Positions 12,781 to 42,873 of a stretch of 64,000 bases of DNA are shown here, piece after piece; positions within the stretch are counted from its first letter, which is position 1; every line of letters begins with the position of its first letter. The position numbers were made by a program, and so were the translations under genes. The notes under the pieces are model-generated. The model worked only from the letters and a program-made list of their open reading frames with translations, had not been told where the DNA came from and did no database searches. This DNA comes from Streptomyces sp. NBC_00344 (GTDB taxonomy: Bacteria > Actinomycetota > Actinomycetes > Streptomycetales > Streptomycetaceae), in assembly GCF_036088315.1 (NCBI RefSeq), contig NZ_CP107996.1, positions 2,500,501 through 2,564,500 on the forward strand. Reading direction: 5' to 3'.

Positions 12781-12810
12781 CTACGCGCGTAGGGAATGAG
12801 CGGTTACCCT
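12781..12810 (+). promoter_or_regulatory. CTACGCGCGTAG operator and -10 box of the purine nucleoside phosphorylase gene
   Basis: The perfect 12-bp palindrome is at 12781-12792. TACCCT (12805-12810) lies seven bases before the GTG start (12818), so the transcript is probably leaderless and the palindrome covers the -35 region. The same palindrome recurs before five other nucleoside-use promoters in this window, which argues for repression by one shared regulator. Confidence 0.75.
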
Positions 12811-12817
12811 CATCGGC

Positions 12818-13639
12818 GTGAACGATTCAGTTGATCCGGACATCCAGGGCGACCCGCACGCCGCCGCCGACGCCGCCGCCACGCGTCTGCGAGAACTCAC
12901 CGGCGCCGAGACCCATGACGTCGCCCTCGTGATGGGCTCCGGCTGGGCGCCGGCCGTCGACGCACTCGGGACACCCGAGGCCGACTTCGCCGTCACCGAA
13001 CTGCCAGGATTCCCGCCGCCCGCGGTCGAGGGCCACGGCGGCAGGGTCCGCTCGTACGTGATCGGGGGGAAGCGTGCGCTGGTCTTCCTCGGCCGGACCC
13101 ACTTCTACGAGGGCCGCGGTGTCGCGGCGGTCTCGCACGGCGTCCGCACCGCCGTCGCCGCCGGCTGCAAGACGGTCGTCCTGACGAACGGCTGCGGCGG
13201 TCTCCGCCCCGGGATGCGCCCCGGCCAGCCGGTCCTGATCAGCGACCACATCAACCTGACGGCCACCTCGCCGATCATCGGCGCCAACTTCGTCGATCTC
13301 ACCGACCTCTACTCGCCGCGGCTGCGCGCCCTGTGCAAGGAGGTCGACGAGACGCTGGAGGAGGGTGTGTACGTGCAGTTCCCCGGCCCGCACTACGAGA
13401 CCCCCGCCGAGATCGGCATGGTCCGGGTGCTGGGCGGCGATCTGGTCGGCATGTCCACCGTCCTCGAGGCGATCGCCGCCCGGGAGGCGGGCGCGGAGGT
13501 TCTCGGCATCTCCCTGGTGACGAACCTGGCGGCAGGACTCACCGGCGAGCCGCTGAACCACGAGGAAGTTCTCCAGGCCGGCCGGGACTCGGCCGCCCGG
13601 ATGGGTGCGCTGCTGAAGCGGGTGCTCGAGCGCATCTGA
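12818..13639 (+). CDS. Purine nucleoside phosphorylase
   Basis: The 273-residue protein splits purine nucleosides with phosphate into base and (deoxy)ribose 1-phosphate. Family motifs are visible in order: VMGSGWAP (phosphate loop), [31 protein letters not shown], the Y/F-rich [18 protein letters not shown] and [10 protein letters not shown] with the purine-contacting Asn. The length matches the trimeric low-molecular-mass PNP class. The phosphohexomutase gene follows 43 bases later and can handle the sugar phosphate released. A perfect CTACGCGCGTAG site upstream links it to deoC, add, deoA and the transporter. Confidence 0.95.
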
Positions 13640-13682
13640 CCCGCCCGCCCCGCCGAACAACAGGACCGAGAGGCAGACCACC

Positions 13683-15314
13683 GTGCAGCAGAACCTCATC
13701 CAGCGGGCCATGGCCTGGCAGGCCGAGGACCCCGACCCGGAGACCCGCGACGAACTCGCCGGGCTCATCGCAGCCGAGGACATGGACGAGCTGACCGCAC
13801 GGTTCAGCGGCACCCTCCAGTTCGGCACCGCCGGCCTCCGCGGCGAGCTCGGTGCGGGTCCGATGCGGATGAACAGGAGCGTCGTCATCCGGGCGGCGGC
13901 GGGGCTCGCGGCCTACCTGAAGGCCGAGGGGCAGGCCGGCGGCCTGGTCGTCGTCGGCTACGACGCCCGCTACAAGTCCGCCGACTTCGCCCGTGACACC
14001 GCGGCCGTGATGACCGGCGCGGGCCTGCGCGCCGCGGTGCTCCCCTGCCCGCTGCCCACCCCGGTGCTCGCCTTCGCCATCCGTCATCTGGGCGCCGTCG
14101 CCGGCGTCGAGGTCACCGCGAGTCACAACCCGCCGCGCGACAACGGCTACAAGGTCTATCTGGGCGACGGCTCCCAGATCGTGCCCCCGGCGGACGGCGA
14201 GATCGCGGCCGCCATCGACGCGGTGCGGAGCCTGGCCGACGTACCGCGCCCGGACAGCGGGTGGGAGGTCCTGAAGGACGACGTCCTGGAGGCCTATCTG
14301 GCCCGTACGGATGCCGTACTGACCGCGGGCTCCCCCCGCACCGCCCGGGTCGTCTACACGGCCTTGCACGGTGTCGGCAAGGACACCCTGGTCGCCGCCT
14401 TCGCCCGGGCCGGTTTCCCCGCACCTGTGCTGGTCGCCGAACAGGCGGAGCCGGACCCCGCCTTCCCGACCGTCGCGTTCCCGAACCCGGAGGAGCCGGG
14501 CGCGATGGACCTCGCCTTCGCGACGGCCCGCCGCGCCGCGCCGGACATCATCATCGCCAACGACCCGGACGCCGACCGGTGTGCGGTGGCCGTCCCGCAC
14601 GACGGCGACTGGCGGATGCTCAGCGGTGACGAGGTGGGCGCCCTGCTGGCCGCCCACCTGGTCCGCCGGGGTGTCACCGGCACCTTCGCCGAGTCGATCG
14701 TGTCCTCGTCGCTGCTGGGCCGGATCGCCGGCGCCGCCGGGCTCGGGTACGAGGAGACACTGACCGGCTTCAAGTGGATCTCGCGCGTCGAAGGACTGCG
14801 GTACGGCTACGAGGAAGCCCTCGGCTACTGCGTCGACCCTCAGGGCGTGCGCGACAAGGACGGCATCACCGCCGCGCTGCTGATCGCCGAGCTGGCTTCC
14901 GCACTCAAGGCCGATGGCCGTACGCTCCCCGACCTGCTCGACGAACTCGCCGTCCAGCACGGCCTGCACGCCACCGACCAGCTCTCCGCCCGGGTCGACG
15001 ATCTGTCGCTCATCGCGGACGCGATGCGACGGCTGCGCGCCCAGCCGCCCACCGTGCTCGGTGGTCTGCCGGTCACGTCCGCCGAGGACCTCGGCCGGGG
15101 CACGGCGCAGCTGCCACCCACCGACGGGCTGCGCTACCGGCTGGAGGGGGCCAGGGTGATAGTCCGTCCGAGCGGCACCGAACCCAAGATCAAGTGCTAT
15201 CTGGAGGTCGTGCTCCCGGTGGACACGATCAGCGCGGTCCCCGCGGCCCGCACCGAAGCGAAGGCGCTGCTCGAGGCCATCAAGGCGGATCTCTCCCGGG
15301 CCGCCGGGCTGTGA
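13683..15314 (+). CDS. Alpha-D-phosphohexomutase (phosphomannomutase/phosphopentomutase-like)
   Basis: The 543-residue protein is a phosphohexomutase with the phosphoserine loop GVEVTASHNP (Ser147), the metal loop NDPDADR, the sugar loop SGDEVG and the phosphate-binding RPSGTEPKIKCY near the C-terminus. The family moves phosphate between C1 and C6 (or C5) of sugar phosphates. Because it is co-transcribed with purine nucleoside phosphorylase and no deoB is visible here, it may convert (deoxy)ribose 1-phosphate to 5-phosphate, feeding DeoC. The mycobacterial PmmB gene is next to deoD in the same way. Substrate choice is inference; annotation as phosphomannomutase would rest on homology only. 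Confidence 0.9.
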   Translation: MQQNLIQRAMAWQAEDPDPETRDELAGLIAAEDMDELTARFSGTLQFGTAGLRGELGAGPMRMNRSVVIRAAAGLAAYLKAEGQAGGLVVVGYDARYKSADFARDTAAVMTGAGLRAAVLPCPLPTPVLAFAIRHLGAVAGVEVTASHNPPRDNGYKVYLGDGSQIVPPADGEIAAAIDAVRSLADVPRPDSGWEVLKDDVLEAYLARTDAVLTAGSPRTARVVYTALHGVGKDTLVAAFARAGFPAPVLVAEQAEPDPAFPTVAFPNPEEPGAMDLAFATARRAAPDIIIANDPDADRCAVAVPHDGDWRMLSGDEVGALLAAHLVRRGVTGTFAESIVSSSLLGRIAGAAGLGYEETLTGFKWISRVEGLRYGYEEALGYCVDPQGVRDKDGITAALLIAELASALKADGRTLPDLLDELAVQHGLHATDQLSARVDDLSLIADAMRRLRAQPPTVLGGLPVTSAEDLGRGTAQLPPTDGLRYRLEGARVIVRPSGTEPKIKCYLEVVLPVDTISAVPAARTEAKALLEAIKADLSRAAGL

Positions 15315-16095: not shown

Positions 16096-18708
16096 TCACA
16101 CCAGCTGCCACAGATGATCGGCGGACCCGTTGTCCGCCCACTGGGTGACCTGCGCGCTGTCGTTCTGCGACATCCCGTCGACGGCCAGTACCTTGCCGCT
16201 CCGGACGTTGACGATCTTCACCCAGCCGCCTCCGGCGTCGACCAGCTTCCACAGATGGTCCTGTGAACCGTTGTCGTTGTACTGCTGCACCAGCGCGCCG
16301 TCGGCCATGCTCTGGTCGTGGACGGCCAGCAGCTTGCCGCTGTTGCGGTTGTAGATCTTGACCGCACCGCCACCGGCGTCCACCACGGTCCACAGGTGAT
16401 CGAGGGTGCCGTTGTCGCTGTACTGGGTCACGTTGGCGGAGTCGGCCAGCGACTGGTTGCTCACCGCGAGCACCTTGCCGGAGTTCTGGTTCCGGATCTT
16501 CGACCATGCCACCGCCGCACTCCCCTCCGGCAGCAGCAGTGCGAGCACACCGCCGATGACCGGGCGGTCGGCGAACCCCCGCTGGGCCCCGCTGTTCACC
16601 ACGTACCAGTCGGAGAACGGCACCCGCTGCGGCGTGGTGTCGGCGAACCCGTACACGCCGTTGACCAGCGTGTCGCGGGTGGCGGTGTGGTCGGCGAGCC
16701 AGGCCGCCGTCCATATCTCCCAGTCGGCTTTGGTGTAGTCGTTGCGGGGGTCGAGGATCACCCCGTGCGCACCGGCGTGCGCCTGGTACCAGTCGGCCTC
16801 CTGCCGGGCGATCCCGGTGGGCACCAGATTCAGGCCGAGCACGCGGTCCGGGAAGCCGTTGTACTTCAGGCTCCAGGTGCCGTCCTGGTCGTAGGCGAGC
16901 TTCAGATGCGTGCCCGCCGGGTCCTGTCCCTTGCTCACCCACTGGCTGATGTAACCGCGGGCGACGGACAGATAGTGCGCCGAGTCCGATGCGTTGCCGG
17001 CCGCCGTGGCGATCAGGCCCATCGCGCCGATACCGATGATGCCCTTCAGCGCGAGGTTGACGCTGTGCGCGATCCACCCGGTGAAGTCGTCGGTCTGGTT
17101 CTGGTTGCCCGGGTCGAGGGCGTTGGCGACCAGGTAGTCGGCCCACTTGTGCAGGATCTCGTAGTGCGCGTCGGCGAAGGCGGCGGCCTGGTCGGACGGC
17201 AGCCTGCGGATGGCGGCGGCCGCCATGATCAGGATGTTGGCGGACTCCTCGACCGGCATGTCCTCCTCGTTGCCGTCGTCGTGCCCGGTCGCGTTGGGGT
17301 AGCTGGAGCCGAGGTCGTGCTCGGTGAACGCGCCGGGCCAGCCGCCGTGCTCCGCGTAGTCGAGCACGGGCTCGAGCAGCAGTCGCAGATAGCCCGGCGA
17401 CAGATAGAGATAGGCGGGGAAGGCCGGGTAGGTCACATCGACGGTCGAGACGTTTCCGTCGGATGAGATCTCCTTCAGGAATGCCCACGGCGATCCGGCC
17501 CGGTCCACCAGCTCCGTACCGGCGACGCTCTGGCGCAGCGCCAGGGCGCAGACCGCCGCGTAGTGATCGCCGACGGCGCCGCCACCGACCGCGTTCGACG
17601 CGTCGTTGTGGATCCGGGTGTCCAGGGCGGCCGCGGCCGAGAGGGCGGCGCTGTAGTCGGCGTGGAACCAGTCGACCATGTCGGTCCAGGAACCCCAGTA
17701 GTGCGTCCACCACGGGTTGAGGCTGGTGCCGAGGTAGCTGACCGCGGGGGTACGCACATGTCCGAGGCCGACCTTGAAGAGCGCCGGAGCGGCGCCGGGG
17801 GTGACCGTGCCCAGGTCCTGCAGGAGACCGAGGACGGGCCACCGGTCGCTGATCGCCCGTGGCTTCGCGGAGTCGGACGTGTCGCCGAGCGCCCCCGACG
17901 CGGCGGCGGCCCGCACGGTGGTGTCCTGCCCGATCTGCCAGCTGAGGCCGCCGCCGGTGGGAGCGGCGAGCACCAGGGAGCCCCAGGACGCCTGGTCGTT
18001 GTGCTCCTGGAGGACACCGGGGGTGGCCGGGCTGCAGGTCAGCGCGGTCGTCGAAGCGGTCTTCCGCTGGTCCCAGGTGACCTGGGTGGCATCGTCACCG
18101 TGCACCCACTCCGCGGAGACGTCGACATGGACGGCGACGGTGTGGCTCCTGCCGTCGCCCGCGGCCGCCGAGACCGTCACGTAGCTCATCGGCACCGACT
18201 GACGCTGCAGATTGCCCAGGTCGACCGGGGAGAAGAAGGTGACGGTGAGCGTCACGCCGCCGCCGGCCAGCGTGTAGACGGACTTGGTGGCGGTCAGTGA
18301 CAACGATGTCTGCTGCATCGTGGTCAGCGCCGGCCCGCCAGGGACCGACGGGTTGCCGGCGAACACGTACGCGACACCGTCGATCCTGGCGATCCCGCAC
18401 AGCGCGGTGGTTCTGCCGTTCCAGAACGCCGGCCAGGTGCCCGCCAGGTTGTCGCCCGGCAGCCAGGTGGTCAGGTACATCGAACGGACGGCGAGCGGGG
18501 TCGCGGGCGGACGCAGCGGGCTGAAGGTGCTGGAGGCGAGGGAGCCCGGCGTCTGCGCCGCAGCGGCCGCCGCGCCCGCCGGCCAGGCTGAGGTGACGGC
18601 AGCGGCGGTGGCGACGCCGCCCCAGCGCATCAGGGCACGCCTGGAGAGCGCGCCGGGAGGGGTGGAGGCGGGGCCTGCGGGGCGTTCACGGTCCTCAGGA
18701 TGTGACAC
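16096..18708 (-). CDS. Secreted glutaminase-A-like protein with ricin-type lectin domain
   Basis: The 870-residue protein starts at GTG 18708 after AGGGAAACCTCC. SRRALMRW followed by a hydrophobic Ala-rich run suggests a twin-arginine or Sec signal. The body (about 70-730) matches the glutaminase A-like family: PLAVRSMYLTTWLPGDNLAG..WPAFWNG at the N-terminus, then an (alpha/alpha) barrel with the acidic stretch HDDGNEEDMPVEESANI and WVSKGQDPAGTHLKLAYDQDGTWSLKYN. The last 135 residues hold three ricin B-like repeats, each with SGK.LAV and QH/DHLW. Such proteins may release glutamate from glutamine or act on glycans outside the cell; the lectin domain implies polysaccharide binding. Upstream is a CAACGTTG palindrome typical of LacI-type operators. 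Confidence 0.85.
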   Translation of the reverse strand: MSHPEDRERPAGPASTPPGALSRRALMRWGGVATAAAVTSAWPAGAAAAAAQTPGSLASSTFSPLRPPATPLAVRSMYLTTWLPGDNLAGTWPAFWNGRTTALCGIARIDGVAYVFAGNPSVPGGPALTTMQQTSLSLTATKSVYTLAGGGVTLTVTFFSPVDLGNLQRQSVPMSYVTVSAAAGDGRSHTVAVHVDVSAEWVHGDDATQVTWDQRKTASTTALTCSPATPGVLQEHNDQASWGSLVLAAPTGGGLSWQIGQDTTVRAAAASGALGDTSDSAKPRAISDRWPVLGLLQDLGTVTPGAAPALFKVGLGHVRTPAVSYLGTSLNPWWTHYWGSWTDMVDWFHADYSAALSAAAALDTRIHNDASNAVGGGAVGDHYAAVCALALRQSVAGTELVDRAGSPWAFLKEISSDGNVSTVDVTYPAFPAYLYLSPGYLRLLLEPVLDYAEHGGWPGAFTEHDLGSSYPNATGHDDGNEEDMPVEESANILIMAAAAIRRLPSDQAAAFADAHYEILHKWADYLVANALDPGNQNQTDDFTGWIAHSVNLALKGIIGIGAMGLIATAAGNASDSAHYLSVARGYISQWVSKGQDPAGTHLKLAYDQDGTWSLKYNGFPDRVLGLNLVPTGIARQEADWYQAHAGAHGVILDPRNDYTKADWEIWTAAWLADHTATRDTLVNGVYGFADTTPQRVPFSDWYVVNSGAQRGFADRPVIGGVLALLLPEGSAAVAWSKIRNQNSGKVLAVSNQSLADSANVTQYSDNGTLDHLWTVVDAGGGAVKIYNRNSGKLLAVHDQSMADGALVQQYNDNGSQDHLWKLVDAGGGWVKIVNVRSGKVLAVDGMSQNDSAQVTQWADNGSADHLWQLV

Positions 18709-18787
18709 GGAGGTTTCCCTTTCCGGTTCTGACGGAGGCGTACGCGAGGCTCCCGGGAGCCCGGCCGGCTGCCCCAGGGGTACTTTC

Positions 18788-18795
18788 CAACGTTG
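18788..18795. promoter_or_regulatory. CAACGTTG palindrome upstream of the glutaminase-like gene
   Basis: The 8-bp palindrome, flanked by CTTTC and TAAG to give a partly symmetric 17-mer (18783-18799), sits 80 bases upstream of the GTG start. Central CG flanked by AA/TT is typical of LacI-family operators in Streptomyces carbohydrate genes. The evidence is the motif alone. Confidence 0.4.
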
Positions 18796-18937
18796 TAAGT
18801 CGTTATTCAGGCACCACGGAACCGGGCCGTCAAGATGCCCGGCAGCCATCCGTCCGGGCCGGCGGACACCCGGATCGGTTTACGGTCCCGCCGCTCACCC
18901 GTGTCCATCCGGTGACCGACTCCCCCTGTACAGGTTG

Positions 18938-18956
18938 CTACGCGCGTAGATATGCT
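18938..18956 (+). promoter_or_regulatory. CTACGCGCGTAG operator and -10 box of deoC
   Basis: The perfect palindrome is at 18938-18949 and TATGCT (-10) at 18951-18956. Six bases later is the GTG start of deoC (18963), so the mRNA is probably leaderless and the operator lies in the -35/-10 spacer, where a bound protein would block polymerase. Confidence 0.78.
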
Positions 18957-18962
18957 CATCTG

Positions 18963-19934
18963 GTGACCATGCCCACCACTGTTCCCCCCGCATTCGCCGA
19001 CGCGACCGCGTCCGACAGCGCGCTGCGCCGTTTCCTGCACGGGCTGCCCGGCGTGGACGCCGTTGGCCTCGAAGCGCGCGCCGCCTCCCTCGGCACCCGT
19101 TCGATCAAGACCACAGCGAAGGCCCACGCCATCGATCTGGCCATCTCGATGATCGACCTGACGACGCTCGAAGGCGCTGACACCCCGGGCAAGGTCCGGG
19201 CGCTGGCCGCGAAGGCCGTCCATCCCGACCCCACGGACCGCAGCGCACCGATGACGGCCGCGGTCTGTGTCTATCCGGACATGGCGGCGGTCGCCAGGGA
19301 AGCGCTGCACGGCGCCGATGTGAAGGTCGCGTCGGTCGCCACCGCCTTCCCGGCGGGCCGGGCCGCACTGCCGGTGAAGCTCGCCGATGTGCGGGACGCC
19401 GTGGCGGCGGGCGCCGACGAGATCGACATGGTGATCGACCGCGGCGCGTTCCTTTCCGGCCGGTACCTGTCGGTCTTCGAGGAGATCCAGGCCGTCAAGG
19501 CGGAGTGCGTACGTCCTGAGGGCAGCGCCGCCCGGCTGAAGGTGATCTTCGAGACCGGCGAGCTGTCGACGTACGACAACATCCGCCGCGCCTCCTGGAT
19601 CGGCATGATGGCCGGCGCCGACTTCATCAAGACCTCGACCGGCAAGGTCGCGGTCAACGCCACACCCGCCAACACCCTGCTGATGCTGGAGGCGGTGCGC
19701 GACTACCGTGCGCAGACCGGCATCCAGATCGGTGTGAAGCCCGCGGGCGGCATCCGCAGCACCAAGGACGCGATCAAGTTCCTGGTGCTGGTCAACGAGA
19801 CCGTCGGCGAGGACTGGCTGGACAACCACTGGTTCCGCTTCGGCGCCTCCAGCCTGCTGAACGACCTGCTGATGCAGCGGCAGAAGCTCAGCACCGGCCG
19901 CTACTCCGGCCCCGACTATGTGACGGTGGACTGA
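18963..19934 (+). CDS. deoC: Deoxyribose-phosphate aldolase DeoC
   Basis: The 323-residue enzyme splits 2-deoxyribose 5-phosphate into glyceraldehyde 3-phosphate and acetaldehyde. The Schiff-base lysine is in GADFIKTSTGK and the second catalytic lysine in IGVKPAGGIR; EIDMVIDRGAF is the conserved barrel strand. The start GTG 18963 fits the leaderless promoter; ATG 18969, two codons in, is the alternative. The length exceeds the about 220-residue E. coli type, matching the longer animal/actinobacterial class with an N-terminal extension. Two aldehyde dehydrogenase-like genes follow five bases later, well placed to oxidise the acetaldehyde. Confidence 0.95.
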   Translation: MTMPTTVPPAFADATASDSALRRFLHGLPGVDAVGLEARAASLGTRSIKTTAKAHAIDLAISMIDLTTLEGADTPGKVRALAAKAVHPDPTDRSAPMTAAVCVYPDMAAVAREALHGADVKVASVATAFPAGRAALPVKLADVRDAVAAGADEIDMVIDRGAFLSGRYLSVFEEIQAVKAECVRPEGSAARLKVIFETGELSTYDNIRRASWIGMMAGADFIKTSTGKVAVNATPANTLLMLEAVRDYRAQTGIQIGVKPAGGIRSTKDAIKFLVLVNETVGEDWLDNHWFRFGASSLLNDLLMQRQKLSTGRYSGPDYVTVD

Positions 19935-19939: not shown

Positions 19940-21376
19940 ATGGCATCCGTATTCGAATACGCCCCCGCGCCGGAGTCCCGCGCGGTCGTCGACGTCGCCC
20001 CGTCCTACGGGCTCTTCATCGACGGCGAGTTCACCGAAGCGGCGGACGGCAAGGTCTTCAAGACCGTCAGTCCCTCCAGTGAGGAAGTGCTCTCGGAGGT
20101 CGCCCGGGCGGGCGCAGCCGATGTGGACCGTGCGGTGCAGGCGGCCCGCGGGGCATTCGGTTCGTGGTCGGCGCTGCCCGGCTCGGAGCGCGCCAAGTAC
20201 CTCTTCCGTATCGCCAGGATCGTCCAGGAGCGATCGCGCGAGCTGGCCGTCCTGGAAACTCTCGACAACGGCAAGCCCATCAGGGAGACCCGCGACGCGG
20301 ACCTCCCGCTGGTCGCCGCGCACTTCTTCTACTACGCGGGCTGGGCCGACAAGCTGGACCACGCGGGGTACGGTGCGAACCCGCGCCCGCTCGGTGTCGC
20401 CGGTCAGGTCATCCCGTGGAACTTCCCGCTGCTGATGCTCGCGTGGAAGATCGCACCGGCGCTCGCCACCGGTAACACCGTGGTCCTGAAGCCCGCCGAG
20501 ACCACCCCGCTCAGCGCGCTGTTCTTCGCCGACATCTGCCGTCAGGCCGGTCTGCCGAAGGGCGTCGTCAACATCCTTCCCGGTTACGGGGACGCGGGCC
20601 AGGCGCTTGTTGAGCACCCGGACGTCAACAAGGTCGCCTTCACCGGTTCGACCGCCGTGGGCAAGGCCATCGCCCGCTCGGTGGCCGGTACGGACAAGAA
20701 GGTCACTCTGGAGCTCGGCGGCAAGGGCGCCAACATCGTCTTCGACGACGCCCCCATCGACCAGGCCGTCGAGGGCATCGTCACCGGCATCTTCTTCAAC
20801 CAGGGGCAGGTCTGCTGCGCGGGTTCGCGCCTGCTCGTACAGGAGTCGGTCCAGGACGAGCTTCTGGACTCGCTGAAGCGGCGCCTCTCCACGCTCCGCC
20901 TCGGCGACCCGCTGGACAAGAACACCGACATCGGCGCCATCAACTCCGCCGAGCAGCTGGCCCGGATCACCGCGCTCGCCGACACCGGTGAGGCCGAGGG
21001 CGCCGAGCGCTGGTCGCCCGCGTGTGAACTCCCCTCCGCCGGATACTGGTTCGCACCGACGCTGTTCACCGGCGTCACCCAGGCACACACCGTGGCCCGC
21101 GACGAGATCTTCGGCCCGGTGCTCTCGGTGCTGTCCTTCCGCACACCGGACGAGGCCGTCGCCAAGGCGAACAACAGCCAGTACGGCCTCTCGGCCGGCA
21201 TCTGGACGGAGAAGGGCTCGCGGATCCTCGCGGTCGCGAGCAAGCTCCGGGCCGGTGTGGTGTGGGCCAATACATTCAACAAGTTCGACCCGACCTCGCC
21301 CTTCGGCGGCTACAAGGAGTCGGGATACGGACGTGAAGGCGGCCGCCACGGCCTGGAGGCGTACCTCGATGTCTGA
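19940..21376 (+). CDS. Aldehyde dehydrogenase (active), DeoC-linked
   Basis: The 478-residue NAD(P)-dependent aldehyde dehydrogenase has the general base Glu258 in [12 protein letters not shown], the nucleophile Cys292 in [12 protein letters not shown], and the cofactor segment [30 protein letters not shown]. It begins five bases after deoC, so both are surely co-transcribed. The C-terminus ([18 protein letters not shown]) is typical. A role in turning acetaldehyde from deoxyribose breakdown into acetate is inferred from context. It resembles the first, catalytic domain of ALDH16-type double-domain proteins. Confidence 0.93.
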
Positions 21377-30357: not shown

Positions 30358-30363
30358 CCGTGC

Positions 30364-30385: not shown

Positions 30386-30460
30386 AACCGGGTGGGCCGA
30401 TATGTAACAGTGACCGTCCTGAAGGGTGGTGTACACCTTCGCTTCTGAGACTGTTCCGTT

Positions 30461-32212: not shown

Positions 32213-32229
32213 GGGAACGATTATGACCA

Positions 32230-32268
32230 GTCCATGCATTGGACGCATGAGGATCGGCGGCCTACGTT
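32230..32268. promoter_or_regulatory. LysR-type operator and MFS promoter in the divergent spacer
   Basis: GTCCA (32230-32234), TGCAT, TGGAC (32240-32244) is a 15-bp inverted repeat between the lysR and MFS starts. TACGTT (32263-32268) lies six bases before the MFS ATG at 32275, a leaderless -10 box. Confidence 0.6.
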
Positions 32269-32274
32269 CGCTGT

Positions 32275-34366: not shown

Positions 34367-34396
34367 TCCGGGGCCGTACGGGGAACCGTGTGCCGA

Positions 34397-34419
34397 TTGT
34401 CAGTGGCCCCCTGTAGTTT
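34397..34419 (+). promoter_or_regulatory. RecA-NDp (PafBC-type) DNA-damage promoter of the SigG-like gene
   Basis: TTGTCAGTG (34397-34405), eight bases, TAGTTT (34414-34419) matches the mycobacterial RecA-independent damage promoter consensus TTGTCRGTG-N8-TAnnnT at every defined position. It lies 39 bases before the ATG of the sigma factor gene. Confidence 0.85.
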
Positions 34420-34457
34420 CGGATCGCTGGTGTGATTCGTCTCGGACAGGGGGCACC

Positions 34458-35435
34458 ATGGCCGACCTCGCGACTACAGACCTCGACTCCCGTCTGGAAG
34501 GACACCGGACCGAGCTGACGGGCTACTGCTACCGCATGCTCGGTTCCTCCTTCGAAGCGGAGGACGCCGTCCAGGACACCATGGTCCGGGCCTGGCGGAG
34601 CTTCGACCGCTTCGAGGGGCGTTCCTCGCTGCGCTCGTGGCTCTACCGCATCGCGACCAATGTCTGCCTGGACATGCTGAACGCGGGGAACAAGCGGGCC
34701 CGGCCGATGGATCTCACCGCCGCGACCCCGGTCGCCCAGGCGGCGCTCAACTCCCGCCCCGAGGTCACCTGGCTGGAGCCGGTGCCGGACGGCAGGGTGC
34801 TCCCCACGGCCGCCGATCCGGCCGAGGCGGCGGTGGAACGGGAGTCGATCCGGCTTGCCTTCGTCGCCGCCCTGCAGCATCTGCCGCCCAAACAGCGGGC
34901 CGTACTCATCCTCCGCGAGGTGCTGGCCTGGAAGGCGAGCGAGGTCGCCGAGCTGCTCGAGACCTCGGTGGCATCGGTCAACAGCGCCCTCCAGCGGGCC
35001 CGCTCGACCCTCGCCGACTCCGCACCCGCGGCCACCGACACCGCCGATCCGCTCGACGAGGAACAGCAGAAGCTGCTCGCCCGCTATGTGGCGGCCTTCG
35101 AGGGTTACGACATGCAGGCACTGACCGCTCTGCTGCATGAGGACGCCACCCTCTCCATGCCGCCGTACGACCTGTGGCTGCGCGGCCACGACAACATCGT
35201 CGGCTGGATGCTGGGGGTCGGCTCGGTCTGCCGGGGCTCCCGGCTGCTGCCGGTGGTGGCCAACGGCACGCCGGCCTTCGCCCACTACCACCCGAGCGAA
35301 TCGGGCAAGGGCTTCGATCCCTGGGCGCTGATGGTCATCGAGATCACCGACGGCGCGGTCGCCGGGATCACGTCGTTCCTGGACACCGAGCGGTGGTTCC
35401 CGCTGTTCGATCTGCCCGCCCGTCTGGAGGAGTGA
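34458..35435 (+). CDS. SigG-like ECF sigma factor with SnoaL-type C-terminal domain
   Basis: The 325-residue protein has sigma region 2 ([30 protein letters not shown] and [18 protein letters not shown]), region 4 ([41 protein letters not shown]) and a C-terminal SnoaL-like domain of about 130 residues ([31 protein letters not shown]). This architecture is that of M. tuberculosis SigG (TIGR02960-type). These factors lack a separate anti-sigma; the SnoaL domain is thought to control activity. The upstream RecA-NDp promoter predicts DNA-damage induction, as known for mycobacterial sigG. Confidence 0.92.
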
Positions 35436-35829: not shown

Positions 35830-37107
35830 TCAGGCGATGCGGTCCAGCACGATCGGGCTCGCCGTGAAGCCGGTGCCCGCAGCGGCGATGTCGAACGCCG
35901 CGGGAAGCGACTCGAGCGCGTAGGCGAACTTCTCCGGGGTGTCCGTGTGCAGGGTCAGCAGCGGCTGGCCCGCGGTCACCGTGTCACCCGGCTTCGCATG
36001 CAGCTCGATGCCGGCACCCGCCTGCACCGGGTCCTCCTTGCGTGCGCGGCCCGCACCGAGCCGCCAGGCGGCGACGCCGATGTCATACGCGTCGAGACGG
36101 GTCAGCACTCCGCTCGAAGGGGCGGTGACGATGTGCTGCTCGCGGGCGACCGGCAGGGCGGCGTCCGGGTCGCCGCCCTGGGCCTCGATCATCCGGCGCC
36201 AGTGGTCCATGGCGGAGCCGTCGGCGAGTGCCTTGGCCGGATCGGCGTCCTTGAGTCCTGCCGCGTCCAGCATTTCGCGGGCCAGCGCGAGAGTGAGCTC
36301 GACGACGTCGGAAGGACCGCCGCCCGCCAGGACCTCGACGGACTCACGTACTTCGAGGGCGTTGCCCGCGGTCAGACCGAGCGGCGTGGCCATGTCGGTG
36401 AGGAGCGCGACGGTGCGGACGCCGTGGTCGGTGCCGAGTCCGACCATCGTCGAGGCGAGCTCGCGGGCATCCGCCAGATTCTTCATGAAGGCGCCGGAGC
36501 CGACCTTCACGTCCAGCACCAGGGAGCCGGTGCCCTCGGCGATCTTCTTGGACATGATCGAGGACGCGATCAGCGGAATGGCCTCGACGGTGCCGGTGAC
36601 GTCGCGCAGCGCGTAGAGCTTCTTGTCGGCAGGGGCCAGTCCGTCTCCCGCCGCACAGATGACCGCGCCGACCGAATCGAGGACGTCCATCATCTCGGTG
36701 TTGGAGAGCAGCGCCCGCCAGCCGGGGATGGACTCCAGCTTGTCCAGGGTGCCACCGGTGTGGCCGAGGCCCCGGCCGGAGAGCTGCGGCACCGCGGCAC
36801 CGCAGGCGGCGACCAGCGGAGCCAGCGGCAGCGTGATCTTGTCGCCGACGCCACCGGTGGAGTGCTTGTCGGCGGTCGGCCGGGAGAGCGCCGAGAAGTC
36901 CATCCGCTCACCGGAGGCGATCATCGCCGCGGTCCAGCGGGCGATCTCGGTGCGGTTCATTCCATTGAGCAGGATCGCCATGGCCAGCGCCGACATCTGC
37001 TCGTCGGCGACCTCGCCGCGGGTGTAGGCGTCGATCACCCAGTCGATCTGCTCCGGGCTCAGCTCGCCGCGGTCCCGCTTGGTGCGGATGACGGAGATGA
37101 CGTCCAT
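35830..37107 (-). CDS. deoA: Thymidine phosphorylase
   Basis: The 425-residue enzyme splits thymidine (and deoxyuridine) into base and deoxyribose 1-phosphate. The glycosyltransferase family signature is intact: AMAILLNGMNRTEIARWTAAMIASG, then SRPTADKHSTGGVGDKITLPLAP with the phosphate-binding Lys-His-Ser-Thr-Gly-Gly, and SGRGLGHTGGTLDKLE. The start ATG at 37107 has GGAAGGAA nearby. A near-perfect CTACGCGCATAG site lies upstream, and a hairpin separates it from the cdd-transporter operon, so deoA has its own promoter in the same regulon. Confidence 0.95.
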   Translation of the reverse strand: MDVISVIRTKRDRGELSPEQIDWVIDAYTRGEVADEQMSALAMAILLNGMNRTEIARWTAAMIASGERMDFSALSRPTADKHSTGGVGDKITLPLAPLVAACGAAVPQLSGRGLGHTGGTLDKLESIPGWRALLSNTEMMDVLDSVGAVICAAGDGLAPADKKLYALRDVTGTVEAIPLIASSIMSKKIAEGTGSLVLDVKVGSGAFMKNLADARELASTMVGLGTDHGVRTVALLTDMATPLGLTAGNALEVRESVEVLAGGGPSDVVELTLALAREMLDAAGLKDADPAKALADGSAMDHWRRMIEAQGGDPDAALPVAREQHIVTAPSSGVLTRLDAYDIGVAAWRLGAGRARKEDPVQAGAGIELHAKPGDTVTAGQPLLTLHTDTPEKFAYALESLPAAFDIAAAGTGFTASPIVLDRIA

Positions 37108-37140: not shown

Positions 37141-37155
37141 ACTCTACGCGCATAG
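37141..37155 (-). promoter_or_regulatory. Variant CTACGCGCGTAG operator overlapping the deoA -10 box
   Basis: CTATGCGCGTAG on the minus strand (37155 to 37144) has one change from the consensus and is extended symmetrically by T and A (TCTATGCGCGTAGA). TAGAGT (37146 to 37141) is the likely -10 and shares its TA with the operator. The start codon is 34 bases further on. Confidence 0.7.
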
Positions 37156-37205: not shown

Positions 37206-37595
37206 TCAGTTGAGGTGCTGCGGGCCGAACGCCTGGGGCAGCATCTCGGACAGCGGGAGGACCCCGCCCGGGGTTTCGAGCAGCAGCTCGGGCCCGCCGA
37301 ATTCGTACAGCAGCTGACGGCAGCGACCGCACGGCACCAGCACGGCGCCCTCACCGTCCACACAGGTGAAGTGCGTCAGCCGTCCCCCGCCGGTGGCCTG
37401 GAGCTGGGAGACCAGTCCGCACTCGGCGCACAGCCCGAGACCGTACGAGGCGTTCTCGACATTGCAGCCGACGACCGTGCGGCCGTCGTCCACCAGGGCG
37501 GCCACACCGACCGGGTACTTCGAGTACGGCGCGTACGCACGGGACATCGCACCCCGCGCAGCCTCCCGCAGAACATCCCAGTCGATCTCGGTCAC
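37206..37595 (-). CDS. cdd: Cytidine deaminase
   Basis: The 129-residue enzyme deaminates (deoxy)cytidine to (deoxy)uridine. The zinc site is clear: VGCNVENASYGLGLCAECG supplies the Cys-Ala-Glu motif, and VPCGRCRQLLYEFGG the CxxC pair. The length fits the homotetrameric class. The GTG start overlaps the stop of the upstream permease gene by four bases, so cdd is the last gene of the nucleoside transporter operon. A hairpin follows immediately. Confidence 0.95.
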   Translation of the reverse strand: MTEIDWDVLREAARGAMSRAYAPYSKYPVGVAALVDDGRTVVGCNVENASYGLGLCAECGLVSQLQATGGGRLTHFTCVDGEGAVLVPCGRCRQLLYEFGGPELLLETPGGVLPLSEMLPQAFGPQHLN

Positions 37596-38878
37596 TTGCC
37601 CTGGCCCTTCCGGTAGCGCATACCGTCCGCCTTGGGCATCCGCAGCCGCTGCGCGGAGAGCGAGAGCACCAGCAGCGTCACCACATACGGCGTGGCACCC
37701 ACGAAGTCGGACGGGACATCGTCGGTCAACAGGTACCAGACGAGGATGACCGCGGCCATCACCGCGCTGATCGTGCCCTGCACGAGCGCCCTGCGGTACA
37801 GCTTCCACCCGGCGAGCAGCACCAGCAGCACCACGATGAGCAGCAGCAGCGCATGGACGGTCTCGCCGCCGTTGCGCAGCTGGAGCGCGTCGGAGAAGCC
37901 GAACAGCCCGGCGCCCATGGCGAGTCCGCCCGGCCGCCAGTTACCGAAGATCATCGCGGCGAGACCGATGTAGCCACGGCCGCCGGTCTGGTTCTCCAGA
38001 TAGGTGTGCGTGGGGACCATCGCCAGGAACGCACCGCCCAGACCGGCCATACCGCCGGAGATGGCGACGGCCGCGTACTTGTACCGGTAGACGTTGACAC
38101 CCAGCGACTCGGCGGCGATCGGGTTCTCACCGCTGGAGCGCAGCCGCAGGCCGAACGTGGTCTTCCACAGCACCCACCAGGTGCCGGCGAAGAGCAGCAC
38201 GGCCAGGATCGTCAGCACCGAGACGTCGGTGACCAGGCCGCCGAGGATGCCGGCCAGGTCGGAGACCAGGAACCAGTGGTGGTTCGCGATCGAGTTCAGA
38301 CCGTCCGAGAGGCCGGGAACGGTGACGGTGGGCAGCGAGTCGACCGGCGGCGACTGCTTGGGGTTGCCGCCCTTGACGGCCGCTTCGCCGTTGGTGAAGA
38401 AGATCTTGGCGAGGTACTGCGTGATGCCGAGCGCCAGCAGGTTGATCGCGACACCGGACACGATGTGGTCGACGCCGAAGGTGATGGTGACGATGCCGTG
38501 GATCAGACCGCCGAGCATGCCGAAGGTGATTCCGGCGAGCAGCCCGAGCCAGGGGCTGCTCTGCCAGCCGATCCAGCCGGCCCCGAAGGTGCCGAGGATC
38601 ATCATTCCCTCGAGGCCGATGTTGACCACACCGGCCCGCTCGGACCACAGTCCGCCCAGACCCGCGAGGCCGATCGGGACGGCGAGCCCGAGCGATGCGC
38701 TGATCTGCCCCTCGGAGGTGAGCTGGTCGGCGCCGGTGACGATCCGGACCAGCGAGATCAGGATCAGGGCGCCCGCGACGATCAGCAGGACCTTGGGAAG
38801 GCTGAGTTTGCGGCCGGACCTGGCCTTCGCCGCCTTCGGAGCCGCCGGAGGCGGGGTCTTCGTCATCGTCGCGGTCAT
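37592..38878 (-). CDS. Nucleoside ABC transporter permease (second)
   Basis: The 428-residue integral membrane protein belongs to the branched-chain amino acid/nucleoside-type permeases (BPD_transp_2). After a Lys/Pro/Ala-rich cytoplasmic N-terminus it has about ten helices, including VLLIVAGALILISLVRIV, ISASLGLAVPIGLAGLGGLWSERAGVVNIGLEGMM and TTFGLRLRSSGENPIAAESLGVNV, the coupling-loop region. The start overlaps the stop of permease one by four bases (ATGA). It forms a heterodimer with the preceding permease. Confidence 0.93.
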   Translation of the reverse strand: MTATMTKTPPPAAPKAAKARSGRKLSLPKVLLIVAGALILISLVRIVTGADQLTSEGQISASLGLAVPIGLAGLGGLWSERAGVVNIGLEGMMILGTFGAGWIGWQSSPWLGLLAGITFGMLGGLIHGIVTITFGVDHIVSGVAINLLALGITQYLAKIFFTNGEAAVKGGNPKQSPPVDSLPTVTVPGLSDGLNSIANHHWFLVSDLAGILGGLVTDVSVLTILAVLLFAGTWWVLWKTTFGLRLRSSGENPIAAESLGVNVYRYKYAAVAISGGMAGLGGAFLAMVPTHTYLENQTGGRGYIGLAAMIFGNWRPGGLAMGAGLFGFSDALQLRNGGETVHALLLLIVVLLVLLAGWKLYRRALVQGTISAVMAAVILVWYLLTDDVPSDFVGATPYVVTLLVLSLSAQRLRMPKADGMRYRKGQGK

Positions 38879-39999
38879 GCCGTCACCTGCTGCGGGATCG
38901 AGGCGGCCTGCGCGGCGAGTTCGGCGCCGACCTTCTGCTGCTGGCGCTTGAGTCCGTACCGGCGGACGACCTCGTAGGCGATCACGACGCACAGGACGAT
39001 GACGCCCTGGATCACGCCGAGGATCTCCTTGTCGTACCCCTTGAACTCAAGGTGGTTGGTGGTGCGCTCCAGGAAGCCCCAGAGCAGCGCGGCGAGCGCG
39101 ATGCCGATCGGGTGGTTGCGGCCGAGCAGGGCGATCGCGATGCCGGTGAAGCCGACACCCACCGGGAAGTCGTTGCTGTACATGTGGCTGTCGTTGAGCA
39201 GCGTCGGCATACCGATCAGACCGGCCATCGCGCCGGAGATGATCATGCTGGTGGCGACCATCTTCTTGACACTGACACCACTCGCGGAGGCCGCGGACTC
39301 GGACTGGCCGACCGCCCGCAGATCGAAGCCGAAGCGGGTGCGTCCCAGCACGAACCAGTACGCGACACCGGCCAGCGCCGCGATCACGATGAAGCCCCAC
39401 AGCACACCGGCCGGGCCGGTGTCGATGGAGAAGAACCAGGACGACTCCGGCAGCGGCCTGGTGGAGACCAGAGTGCCTGAGTCGTCGAGCTGACCGAGCC
39501 TGCCCGGCTGCATCAGATAGGCGATGACCGCGGTGGCGATCGAGTTGAGCATGATCGTCGAGATGACCTCGCTGACGCCGCGCGTCACCTTCAGAACACC
39601 CGCGATCCCCGCCCACATCGCGCCGACCAGCATGGCGGTGACGATCATCAGTGGGATCTGGACGGCGCCCGGCAGTGTGAGGGCGCCGCCGACCACCGCG
39701 GCGAAGAAGGCGGCCATCCGGTACTGGCCGTCGACGCCGATGTTGAAGAGGTTCATGCGGAAGCCGATGGCCACCGCGATACCGGCGAGGTAGTACGTCG
39801 TCGCCTTGTTGAGGATGTAGATCTGGCTGTCGCTGGCGGAGCCGAAGGTGAGCATGTCGCTGAACGCGGCGAGCGGGTTCTTGCCCGTGGCCAGGATGAC
39901 CAGTGCGGTGACGACCAGGGCCGCCACGAGCGCGAGCAGGGGTGCGGCGATCCCGAGGATCAGCCGTTCCCGGTCGATGCGTGAGGTGTACTTCTTCAT
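38875..39999 (-). CDS. Nucleoside ABC transporter permease (first)
   Basis: The 374-residue membrane protein of the same family has about nine helices, with TTYYLAGIAVAIGFRMNLFNIGVDGQYRMAAFFAA as the family-typical early segment and TRFGFDLRAVGQSESAASASGVSVKKMV as the cytoplasmic coupling loop. It matches YufP/NupP-type permeases of BMP-dependent nucleoside importers. It overlaps the ATPase gene stop by four bases and the second permease by four bases, so expression is tightly coupled. Confidence 0.93.
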   Translation of the reverse strand: MKKYTSRIDRERLILGIAAPLLALVAALVVTALVILATGKNPLAAFSDMLTFGSASDSQIYILNKATTYYLAGIAVAIGFRMNLFNIGVDGQYRMAAFFAAVVGGALTLPGAVQIPLMIVTAMLVGAMWAGIAGVLKVTRGVSEVISTIMLNSIATAVIAYLMQPGRLGQLDDSGTLVSTRPLPESSWFFSIDTGPAGVLWGFIVIAALAGVAYWFVLGRTRFGFDLRAVGQSESAASASGVSVKKMVATSMIISGAMAGLIGMPTLLNDSHMYSNDFPVGVGFTGIAIALLGRNHPIGIALAALLWGFLERTTNHLEFKGYDKEILGVIQGVIVLCVVIAYEVVRRYGLKRQQQKVGAELAAQAASIPQQVTA

Positions 40000-41573
40000 C
40001 GGTCCTCTCCCCCAGCTTCTGCACCGGCAGCGTCCTGGTGGTCCAGGTGTCCGGTGGCGGCGCCGGTCATCGCGGAGCCGAGTTCCTCGGGGGTGATCGT
40101 GGCGGGGTCCGCGTCGGCGACAAGCCGGCCGCGGTACATCACCCGCAGGGTGTCGGACAGGCCGATCAGCTCGTCCAGGTCGGCGGAGATCAGCAGGACC
40201 GCGAGGCCCTCACGGCGGGCCTCCTTGATCTGGTCCCAGATCTGCGCCTGGGCGCCGACGTCCACACCCCGGGTGGGGTGCGCGGCGATCAGCAGCTTGG
40301 GGCGGTGGCTCATCTCCCGGCCGACGATCAGCTTCTGCTGGTTGCCGCCGGAGAGCGAGGCCGCAGTGACATCGATACCGGGCGTACGGACGTCGTACTG
40401 GGCGACGATCCGATCGGTGTCGGCGCGTGCGGCCTTGGCGTCGATCAGTCCCCGCCGCGAGTTGGGGCGTTCGGTGACGTGGCCGAGAATGCGGTTCTCC
40501 CAGAGCGGCGCCTCGAGGAGCAGGCCGTGGCGGTGCCGGTCCTCGGGGATGTAGCCGATACCGGCCTCGCGCCGCTTGCGGGTGGGTGCGTGCGAGATGT
40601 CGTCGGTGCCGAGAGTGATGACCCCGCCGTCAGGGTCGCGCATACCCATGATCGCTTCGACGAGCTCCGCCTGGCCGTTGCCCTCCACACCTGCGATGCC
40701 CAGGACTTCGCCCTTGCGGATGGTGAACGAGACCCCGGAGAGCACATCGCGCACGAACCCGTCGGCGTCGGCCGCCGTCAGCCTGAGGTCGTCGATGTCG
40801 AGCATCGGCGTTTCGGTGACCGTCGACTCACGGGTCTCGGGCGAGGGCAGCTCGCTGCCGACCATCAGCTCGGCCAGCTGCCTGGACGTGGTGGACGCCG
40901 GATCGACGGTACCCACGGTGGTGCCGCGGCGGATGACCGTGATCTCGTCGGCGACCGACAGCACCTCGCCCAGCTTGTGCGAGATGAAGATGACGGTCAG
41001 GCCCTCGGACTTGAGCTCGCGCAGGTTGTCGAAGAGCGCGTCGACCTCCTGCGGGACCAGCACCGCGGTCGGTTCGTCGAGGATCAGGGTGCGGGCGCCG
41101 CGGTAGAGGACCTTGAGGATCTCCACCCGCTGGCGGTCGGCGACCCCGAGGTCCTCGACCAGCACGTCCGGGCGGACGTTCAGCCCGTACGCCTCCGAGA
41201 GCTCCCTGATCCTGGCACGGGCCTTGTTGCCGATGCCGTACAGCTTCTCGCCGCCGAGTACGACGTTCTCGAGGACGGTGAGGTTGTCGGCGAGCATGAA
41301 GTGCTGGTGCACCATGCCGATGCCGAGGGCGATGGCGTCGGCCGGGGTGGAGAAGGACGCCTGCTTGCCGTCGACAGCGATGGTGCCCTCGTCCGGCTTC
41401 TGCATGCCGTAGAGGATCTTCATCAGGGTGGACTTGCCGGCACCGTTCTCACCGCACAGGGCGTGCACGGTGCCCTTGCGGACGGTGATGTCGATATCGC
41501 GGTTGGCGACGACACCGGGGAATCGTTTGGTGATGCCGCGCAGTTCGACGGCGGGCGGGCTGAACGCGTTGAT
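39996..41573 (-). CDS. Nucleoside ABC transporter ATPase with non-canonical ATC start
   Basis: The protein has two ATPase domains. Walker A motifs are GENGAGKST near residue 44 and the degenerate GVEGNGQAE in the second half; LSGGNQQKLIVGRE is the second signature. This is the RbsA/NupO-like class for sugar and nucleoside importers. Homology extends 35 codons upstream of the first standard start codon (GTG 41468): residues INAFSPPAVELRGITKRFPG are encoded in frame. No ATG, GTG or TTG occurs between that segment and an in-frame TAG. The likely start is ATC at 41573-41571, nine bases after GGAG, giving 525 residues. It heads the operon with both permeases and cdd. Confidence 0.88.
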   Translation of the reverse strand: MNAFSPPAVELRGITKRFPGVVANRDIDITVRKGTVHALCGENGAGKSTLMKILYGMQKPDEGTIAVDGKQASFSTPADAIALGIGMVHQHFMLADNLTVLENVVLGGEKLYGIGNKARARIRELSEAYGLNVRPDVLVEDLGVADRQRVEILKVLYRGARTLILDEPTAVLVPQEVDALFDNLRELKSEGLTVIFISHKLGEVLSVADEITVIRRGTTVGTVDPASTTSRQLAELMVGSELPSPETRESTVTETPMLDIDDLRLTAADADGFVRDVLSGVSFTIRKGEVLGIAGVEGNGQAELVEAIMGMRDPDGGVITLGTDDISHAPTRKRREAGIGYIPEDRHRHGLLLEAPLWENRILGHVTERPNSRRGLIDAKAARADTDRIVAQYDVRTPGIDVTAASLSGGNQQKLIVGREMSHRPKLLIAAHPTRGVDVGAQAQIWDQIKEARREGLAVLLISADLDELIGLSDTLRVMYRGRLVADADPATITPEELGSAMTGAATGHLDHQDAAGAEAGGEDR

Positions 41574-41658: not shown

Positions 41659-41673
41659 ACGCTACACGCGTAG
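41659..41673 (-). promoter_or_regulatory. Variant CTACGCGCGTAG operator overlapping the ABC operon -10 box
   Basis: On the minus strand CTACGCGTGTAG (41673 to 41662) differs from the consensus at one base. TAGCGT (41664 to 41659) is a good -10 box that shares its TA with the operator, the same geometry as at deoA. The proposed ATC start is 86 bases downstream of the -10. Confidence 0.7.
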
Positions 41674-41688: not shown

Positions 41689-41730
41689 ATGGGCCCGGCA
41701 AGGGGATCACAACCCTCTCACCGGGCCCAT
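41689..41730. terminator. Hairpin after the transporter lipoprotein gene
   Basis: ATGGGCCCGG (41689-41698) and CCGGGCCCAT (41721-41730) form a perfect 10-bp stem; inner AGGG/CCCT extends it. It follows the lipoprotein stop by 13 bases and precedes the ABC operon promoter, so the lipoprotein and the ABC genes are separate transcripts. Confidence 0.85.
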
Positions 41731-41743
41731 GTGACGTGACAGG

Positions 41744-42799
41744 TCAGGGAGTGGTCTTGACCTTGACGGTGCCGTCGGCGATCTTCTTCTTGGCCGCGTC
41801 GAGCTGCGCCTTGATGTCGTCGATGTAGCCACCGCTGGTGGACAGCGAGACGCCGCCCTTGGCCAGCGAGTAGGCGTTGGTACCGGTCATCGGCTTGCCG
41901 CCGTGGACCGACTTGACCAGGTCGTAGACGCCGATGTCGACGTTCTTGACCACCGAGGTCAGGATCGAGGTCTTGTACTTGGACAGCGACGGGATGTTGT
42001 ACTGGTCCGAGTCGACACCGATCGCCCAGGTGCCCTTCTTGCCGTTCACGGCCTCGATCGCGCCGTTACCGGAGGAGCCGGCCGCCGAGTAGACGACGTC
42101 CGCACCCTTGTCGAGCATGCCCTGTGCGGCTTCCTTGCCCTTGTCGGGGCTTGCGAAGCCGGAGAGGTCCGAGCCGTGGCTCAGGTACTGCCGGTCGATC
42201 TTGATGCTCTTGTTGGTGTCCTGGACACCCTGGATGTAGCCCGCCTCGAACTTCTTGATCAGCGGAATGTCCACACCGCCGATGAAGCCGACGTGCTTCG
42301 TCTTGGTCTTCAGCGCGGCGGCAACACCCGCGAGGTAGGAGCTCTGCTCCTCCGTGAAGACGATGTTGTCGACGTTCTTCGCGTCGACAACCGAGTCCAC
42401 GAGGCCGAAGGTGATCTTCGGGTACTTCGCGGCAACCTTCTGCATCGATGCCTGGTAAGAGAAGCCGATGCCGACAATCGGGTTGTAGCCCGCGTCGGCC
42501 AGGTCGGTGAGCCGCTGTTCGCGGTCCGCCTCGGTGTCCGATGTCTTGGCAGTCAGCTCCTTGACATCACCGCCGAACTCAGACTTGGCCTTGTCGATGC
42601 CGCGCGAGGCGGAGTCGTTGAAGGAGTGGTCGCCGCGGCCGCCGACGTCGTAGGCGACGCCGACCTTGACGCCCTTGCCCGAGGAACCGGACGACGAGTC
42701 CGACTCCTTCTGGGTCGACGTGCTGCCGCAGGCAGAAACGGAGAGAGCGAGGGCCGCGGTGGCTATGCCCGACGCGGCGATCTTGGTTACCCGGCGCAA
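41744..42799 (-). CDS. BMP-family nucleoside-binding lipoprotein
   Basis: The 351-residue protein has a lipoprotein signal ending LSVSAC, a Ser/Gly-rich linker and the BMP (PnrA-like) solute-binding fold: VKVGVAYDVGGRGDHSFNDSASRGIDKAKSE, NPIVGIGFSYQ, FGLVDSVVD and NIVFTEEQSSYLAGVAAAL. PnrA relatives bind purine and pyrimidine nucleosides. The start is TTG at 42799, with AAGGGA seven bases upstream. A degenerate CTACGCGCGTAG operator overlaps its -10. High expression separate from the ABC genes is usual for binding proteins and fits the terminator that follows. Confidence 0.93.
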   Translation of the reverse strand: MRRVTKIAASGIATAALALSVSACGSTSTQKESDSSSGSSGKGVKVGVAYDVGGRGDHSFNDSASRGIDKAKSEFGGDVKELTAKTSDTEADREQRLTDLADAGYNPIVGIGFSYQASMQKVAAKYPKITFGLVDSVVDAKNVDNIVFTEEQSSYLAGVAAALKTKTKHVGFIGGVDIPLIKKFEAGYIQGVQDTNKSIKIDRQYLSHGSDLSGFASPDKGKEAAQGMLDKGADVVYSAAGSSGNGAIEAVNGKKGTWAIGVDSDQYNIPSLSKYKTSILTSVVKNVDIGVYDLVKSVHGGKPMTGTNAYSLAKGGVSLSTSGGYIDDIKAQLDAAKKKIADGTVKVKTTP

Positions 42800-42857
42800 G
42801 AGGAGGTCCCTTCAAACCAAACCTGGAGCGCCTCTTCCGGCGCTGGTTTTCGCCAGG

Positions 42858-42873
42858 ATCGTAACGCGCGTAG
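42858..42873 (-). promoter_or_regulatory. Degenerate CTACGCGCGTAG operator overlapping the BMP lipoprotein -10 box
   Basis: On the minus strand CTACGCGCGTTA (42873 to 42862) keeps the whole left arm and centre. TACGAT (42863 to 42858) is the likely -10 and overlaps the operator by two bases, as at deoA and the ABC operon. Confidence 0.65.

Follow-up and report, generated by a model that had tools for sequence, protein, structure and literature searches.

A conserved palindrome at nucleoside, secreted-enzyme and purine-synthesis promoters of Streptomycetaceae is a probable repressor operator

The DNA analyzed here, referred to as the window, is a stretch of 64,000 nucleotides (contig positions 2500501-2564500) from the 7,063,827-base genome of Streptomyces sp. 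NBC_00344. Genes for the uptake and breakdown of nucleosides are located in it, and a 12-bp palindrome, CTACGCGCGTAG, recurs close to their starts. This palindrome is described here as the probable operator of one DNA-binding repressor in the family Streptomycetaceae. Six palindromes had been claimed in an earlier note on the window; all were recovered with the coordinates and mismatches given there, and no other match with up to two changes was found in the 64 kb. The gene assignments of the earlier note (purine nucleoside phosphorylase (PNP), deoC, add, deoA, cdd, two permeases, the ATPase of an ATP-binding cassette (ABC) transporter and the BMP lipoprotein) hold by Pfam. Sites and genes are given below in window coordinates; ORF denotes an open reading frame.

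12781-12792, operator-like palindrome CTACGCGCGTAG, exact, ending 25 nt 5' of the PNP start
12818-13639, + strand, PNP, Pfam PNP_UDP_1
18938-18949, operator-like palindrome, exact, 13 nt (GTG) or 19 nt (ATG) before deoC
18963-19934, + strand, deoC, deoxyribose-phosphate aldolase, Pfam DeoC/LacD on ORF 18702-19934, start by reading
30374-30385, operator-like palindrome, exact, 16 nt from the likely add start
29203-30357, - strand, add, adenosine deaminase, Pfam A_deaminase on ORF 29203-30582, start by reading
37144-37155, operator-like palindrome before deoA, one change
35830-37107, - strand, deoA, pyrimidine nucleoside phosphorylase, Pfam Glycos_transf_3 and PYNP_C, start by reading
41662-41673, operator-like palindrome before the ABC operon, one change
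39996-41573, - strand, ABC ATPase with a possible ATC start at 41573, Pfam ABC_tran on 39996-41468, start by reading
38875-39999, - strand, ABC permease (ORF), Pfam BPD_transp_2
37592-38992, - strand, ABC permease (ORF), Pfam BPD_transp_2
37206-37808, - strand, cdd, cytidine deaminase (ORF, true start inside), Pfam dCMP_cyt_deam
42862-42873, operator-like site before BMP, two changes, CTACGCGCGTTA on the gene strand, overlapping TACGAT
41744-42799, - strand, BMP/PnrA-like nucleoside-binding lipoprotein, Pfam Bmp
13683-15314, + strand, phosphohexomutase-family protein after PNP, possibly a phosphopentomutase by inferred role, Pfam PGM_PMM I-IV
19940-21376, + strand, aldehyde dehydrogenase immediately 3' of deoC, Pfam Aldedh

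The TA of the palindrome had been proposed to serve also as the TA of a TAnnnT -10 word in three promoters, and this was observed for deoA (TAGAGT), the ABC operon (TAGCGT) and BMP (TACGAT). A TAnnnT word was found 1 nt downstream of the site in deoC, 4 nt downstream in add and 12 nt downstream in PNP. Judged by the spacing from this word to the start codon, the PNP, deoC and add transcripts look leaderless. The palindrome is, as had been claimed, common to the genes for uptake, deamination, phosphorolysis and aldol cleavage; it is conserved, and its positions are compatible with a repressor.

Exact copies of the palindrome were found in 61/61 genomes of the genus (the present one included), with two to six copies in each and zero to three of the reversed pattern. 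In the family, the exact palindrome was found in 80/81 genomes and 16/17 genera; some of these genomes are probably the same strains as loci named below, and the sets overlap. The sole exception in the family is G263, in which imperfect sites were seen close to where deoC (one change) and PNP (two changes) would be expected. A sample of 197 genomes of the class contained an exact copy in 16/16 genomes of the genus and in 7 of the 181 others. Nine sites in seven non-family genomes were read by eye, and none of them precedes a nucleoside salvage gene (at one, L184, the simple gene caller gave no gene). In another family, an exact site (L174:5062) is followed after about 0.1 kb by genes resembling those for QueD, QueE, IMP dehydrogenase and phosphoribosyltransferase. 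These are possibly deazapurine genes, and the site there may be due to chance.

The individual promoters were counted in 80 loci, all from Streptomyces, retrieved with deoA (the closest 80 of 577). The BMP promoter carried the site in 76/76 loci examined, always as CTACGCGCGTTA, and the ABC promoter in 75/77 (57 exact, 18 with one change). For the add promoter the count was 54/55, with two loci left out that have add on the other strand and the rest not reaching add. The ABC ATPase itself offers an observation on translation starts: an ATC start at 41571-41573 (- strand) is a mere suspicion, and no in-frame ATG, GTG or TTG occurs in the window from the last stop to the GTG at 41468, a start which would truncate the ATP-binding region. 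The peptide GEC(A/V)IN recurs in many Streptomyces loci. Among 79 loci, 16 were without a usual in-frame start there and 63 had one somewhere.

The regulon had been described as local. This was not borne out, because the same site precedes unlinked genes, namely those for secreted nucleotidases and ribonuclease (RNase), purS-purQ and purN-purH. In family loci not fetched via deoA, which were partly chosen on purpose for sites outside the main cluster among listed genomes, 91 distinct exact sites were counted, 80 of them before a reference gene and 11 not. The 80 sites were distributed over PNP (29), add (18), ABC (15), purN (6), a second add gene (5), deoC (3), a secreted protein with no assigned role (3) and purS (1). 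Three of the 11 remaining sites are likely PNP or BMP-ABC cases missed at contig ends or across a longer gap, two come from different genomes and stand before one and the same HAD-type hydrolase, and six had no clear link. The exact copies before purN-purH came from six genomes of two sister genera. In five genomes, an exact copy was found at the unlinked second add (adenosine deaminase) gene, where the site lies inside the first predicted codons; this gene is far from the cluster in both single-contig cases, G007 and G115. The HAD-type hydrolase (L143:549-1484 and L039:1529-2464, genomes G159 and G024; Pfam Hydrolase_3 for L143) has the exact palindrome close before its start and is a possible new member of the regulon. 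The secreted protein (L224:3052-4806, L220, L223) has the exact palindrome upstream in three genomes of one sister genus, and putative Ig and MAM-like domains were seen in L224.

In the Streptomyces sp. NBC_00344 genome, one-change sites were located at the promoter or 5' end of genes for a guanyl-type ribonuclease, two secreted nucleotidases, a xanthine/uracil-family permease, purS-purQ, a carbon-nitrogen hydrolase and two GH25 lysozymes. The core of the site, CTACGCGCGT, was found about 47 nt before the likely start of a secreted nuclease of the endonuclease/exonuclease/phosphatase family. The lysozymes, nuclease, permease and carbon-nitrogen hydrolase, as well as an rpoB leader considered below, were read in this genome only, and gene starts at outlying sites were taken from a simple GC3 caller and from reading of N-termini. 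In both lysozyme genes (L007:1526-2425, L134:579-1487) the one-change site lies 13 nt before the likely start.

Three of these gene families were followed in 17 family genomes, mainly well-assembled ones, and sites with up to two changes were accepted. A site at matching distance was observed in 30/30 secreted-nucleotidase loci (28/28 without the discovery cases), 15/17 purS-purQ loci (13/15) and 7/15 secreted-RNase loci (6/14). Discovery cases were the present genome for all three families and G191 for purS. The nucleotidase search gave 32 matches, of which 30 had loci that were counted, and none in G147; the 30 comprise 15 ushA-type and 15 cpdB-type genes, as split by search score and not by alignment. 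The ribonuclease search gave 19 matches; the 7/15 leaves out L281-L284, the four weakest, and two two-change sites were seen in one of the excluded loci, L282. As in a PurR-like regulon, one operator-like site is common to de novo purine genes and to genes for purine/nucleoside transport.

The 14-bp consensus of the sites was TCTACGCGCGTAGA. A profile that gives the mean of eight gene classes had 1.00 at positions 1, 6, 7, 9 and 10 of the site and nearly as much at positions 2 and 3; positions 11 and 12 were the loosest. The central C and G were both at 1.00 and the palindrome is even, with half-sites of about 5-7 bp, which is the shape of a LacI/GalR operator. The profile leans to the consensus because up to two changes were allowed in choosing the sites, and its BMP and add rows include two and one mis-picked windows, respectively; the 80-locus count is cleaner. 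The flanks were far more variable than the twelve site bases (sites picked with up to one change). Departures from the consensus were systematic: the nucleotidase variant CTACGCGCGTTG was present in most loci, the RNase variant was CTACGCGCGTCA, and purS mostly had CTAC(C/T)CGCGTAG. A tandem pair of sites 14-15 bp apart was seen in some nucleotidase promoters (L256, L257, L251).

Judged from sequence comparison, a probability of about 85% is given to the reading in which a single DNA-binding repressor of Streptomycetaceae uses the palindrome as its operator, and the best reading of the target genes is a putative control of nucleic-acid scavenging and purine supply. The sites span the spacer, the -10 region, the transcription start or the first codons, where binding of a dimer would prevent initiation or clearance. 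A repressor fits because of this coverage and because the position of an operator varies. Activation by the site-bound protein would agree with the nucleotidase, add and deoC promoters, in which the site appears just upstream of the -10 word, the position of a MerR-type activator. This is nevertheless quite improbable, as the position varies from promoter to promoter, the site and the -10 word overlap in BMP, deoA and ABC, and a site inside the first predicted codons, as in the second add gene, would rarely be tolerated by an activator.

Several observations weigh against a repressor operator. Sites with up to one change are not in excess of the control, with 18 in the genome (five in the window) vs 28 for the reversed palindrome, and the core gave 22 matches vs 22 for its reversal. 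One-change sites without an obvious link to nucleosides were found in the rpoB leader and the dnaA coding region and at genes for a desaturase, a small protein (L008) and a membrane protein (L135). The deoA promoter had the site in 41/80 loci and was without it in 39/80, and the site was missing from purS in 2/17 and from RNase in 8/15 loci. The deoA genes without a site of their own may be transcribed from the ABC-cdd operon.

The number of sites in the window is likewise ordinary, with 4.25 +/- 1.94 expected and six or more in 25/100 shuffles. Repeats arising by chance or from promoter composition, with no operator involved, would account for window and genome counts that are not above controls. 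This explanation is extremely improbable in view of the per-gene conservation in dozens of genomes despite diverged flanks, the near absence from other families and the functional relatedness of the unlinked targets. The case for an operator is built on position and conservation; the counts do not exceed the control pattern. The exact copies in the genome number three, and all are in the window, within 17.6 kb. The earlier statement that no copy precedes non-nucleoside genes is correct for the window and fails for the genome, which has 13 further one-change sites; many of these are at promoters of related genes, and some are inside genes or without an obvious link. For the reversed-palindrome control, 15 of the 28 sites had loci, and 14 of these were inside predicted genes and one overlapped a gene start. 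At least 6 of 19 distinct core sites were inside other coding regions, and these, together with the equal match numbers, make the core alone unspecific.

In the proposed mechanism, secreted RNase and nucleotidases would supply nucleosides for BMP-type import, followed by deamination, phosphorolysis and deoxyribose-phosphate cleavage, with purS-purQ and purN-purH as additional targets of the same repressor. The presence of one site at genes for purine synthesis as well as for secreted enzymes, import, salvage and catabolism suggests a protein that reports purine supply; it would repress when purines are plentiful and release its targets when they are short. Release by a nucleoside or a sugar phosphate had been predicted earlier. 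Because the purine synthesis genes share the site, the data suggest that a purine corepressor or a general purine signal fits at least as well, and induction by a nucleoside is the alternative to release by purine shortage.

Which protein binds the site was considered next to the operator itself. The invariant central CG resembles LacI-type operators, and an even palindrome of this kind suits the LacI/GalR family. LacI was the sole regulator family surveyed, with 28 genes in the genome. The best single candidate, put forward tentatively, is a LacI protein (L401; L428:2285-3304) encoded directly 3' of glnR (GlnR_1st domain). Its gene was found about 4-12 kb from the first nucleotidase gene in 12/15 fetched regions with an unchanged helix-turn-helix (HTH), and the regions L414, L420 and L425 may not reach it. 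The element CGCGTAGACT was present before its start in 12/12 loci. Counting against this candidate, the element matches the 14-mer in only 11/14 bases in a gene chosen out of 28, and 7/1409 control windows (a set that may include some promoters of the candidate) score as high as its half-site. Furthermore, at three bases from the centre an A is usual in LacI operators, instead of C. The NCBIfam models for PurR and UriR gave 171.6 bits (cut-off 501) and 113.9 bits (cut-off 550), respectively, on the candidate.

SCO4158, the subject of a 2012 paper that by its title dealt with pigment production, has a corresponding gene position. Directly after glnR is the place of SCO4158 in the available portion of PMC9739823, where the protein was abundant under phosphate limitation and was proposed as a possible glnR regulator. 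SCO4158 is also listed in an ArgR site table (PMC5839063) and in a carbon-repression regulator table (PMC4848846); no operator for it is given in the available portions of PMC9739823, PMC5839063 and PMC4848846.

Binding by some other regulator, e.g. of the TetR, MerR or another family, is given even odds or slightly better. Several HTH families bind palindromes of 12-14 bp; on the other hand, within a narrow search of promoters, a conserved element resembling the site was seen at a single regulator gene, the glnR-linked LacI gene. The motifs of BldD, DasR/GntR, GlnR, AfsQ1 and LexA, in their usual forms, do not match the palindrome. A LysR gene at 31259-32287, found next to add in other genera too (L209, L218), was put aside, as LysR proteins bind longer sites at a greater distance upstream.

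A regulator gene of the window itself had been offered as a candidate for the repressor:

9397-10374, - strand, DeoR-family regulator, Pfam DeoRC/HTH_DeoR, thought unlikely as the repressor

In E. coli, deo genes are under DeoR control; the DeoR-family protein of the window, if it were the repressor, would sense a (deoxy)ribose phosphate. It is well retained, with a best match of 72-100% identity in 81/81 family genomes and the first 60 residues identical in 31 family loci aligned. Its gene lies about 2-4 kb from an exact site in 32 genomes (coordinates compared by eye) and not so in G258, G273, G283, G289, G299 and G303. Outside the genus, relatives of 47-69% identity were found in 15/181 genomes, where the exact palindrome was absent or inside a gene (G168). 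Ten non-family loci of such relatives were read by eye, none with nucleoside genes or the palindrome adjoining; a ribose-type ABC operon adjoins the DeoR gene in four of them (L347, L348, L349, L351) and not in six, and the intergenic DNA of these four has GATCG-like words and no such palindrome. The contexts of the ten loci vary, and their evidence against DeoR is weak for that reason. In addition, the promoter of the DeoR gene itself is without a site, and DeoR does not easily explain purS or purN. The protein was consequently rated a weak candidate and an unlikely repressor of these genes.

Similar control is known from other bacteria. PurR of E. coli, a LacI-family protein, is likewise one regulator over purine synthesis and transport, and its operator is an even palindrome with a central CG, as here, of different sequence. 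Unlike in PurR regulons, a secreted RNase, nucleotidases and nucleoside catabolism are included here. DeoR and CytR of enteric bacteria likewise cover deoC, nucleoside phosphorylases, a deaminase and nucleoside uptake. They differ in their operator, and here purine synthesis and secreted enzymes share the site; nothing links it to the nearby DeoR. UriR of Corynebacterium, a LacI protein, is a further case of actinobacterial control of nucleoside use, with a narrow uridine operon. PurR of Bacillus is described as one regulator over purine synthesis and transport in the portion available of PMC8789054. In Streptomyces caniferus, 14-bp palindromes with a central CG are the binding sites of GvmR and ScnR1, both of them LacI proteins (PMC12292694, in part). 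In the same portion, the palindrome of GvmR, GvmR2 and ScnR1, RTCATWCGYATGAY, has the 14-bp and central CG geometry observed here and differs in the half-site, and its targets are the guvermectin cluster and the regulators' own genes, unlike here.

No prior description of the motif or regulon in Streptomyces was found among the matches listed for open-licence PMC literature; an earlier one may exist in a subscription journal or a regulon database (RegPrecise, LogoMotif). Among the matches listed there, the exact 12-mer occurred in work on DNA structures and on GapR. For ACGCGCGT combined with Streptomyces and palindrome, the only match listed in open PMC literature was unrelated. The available portion of the review PMC6627660 names XdhR for the xdh genes and contains no match to the word PurR.

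Other genes in the window were noted in passing. An ECF-type sigma factor with a C-terminal SnoaL_2 domain is encoded near deoA (34326-35435). The region 44567-51557 holds look-alikes of sialic-acid-type (nonulosonic) sugar synthesis genes, including a NeuB-like synthase and a CMP-sugar synthetase-like protein, both named by eye from the N-termini alone.

The operator would bring the digestion of extracellular nucleic acids, salvage and purine synthesis together in a single testable circuit. A family-wide operator would also provide a target list and a short DNA probe for fishing out the regulator. Both (p)ppGpp and c-di-GMP draw on purine and nucleotide levels, which in this way bear on development and antibiotic production in Streptomyces. 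A bolder proposal, more speculative than the LacI candidate taken by itself, is that a family-wide repressor, most likely the orphan LacI protein encoded next to glnR, is in charge of a programme of Streptomycetaceae for purine starvation or for scavenging from dead cells. If true, this programme would comprise lysozymes, secreted RNase, nuclease and nucleotidases, import of nucleosides and bases, salvage, catabolism and purine synthesis, and nucleic-acid recycling would be tied to the locus of a nitrogen regulator.

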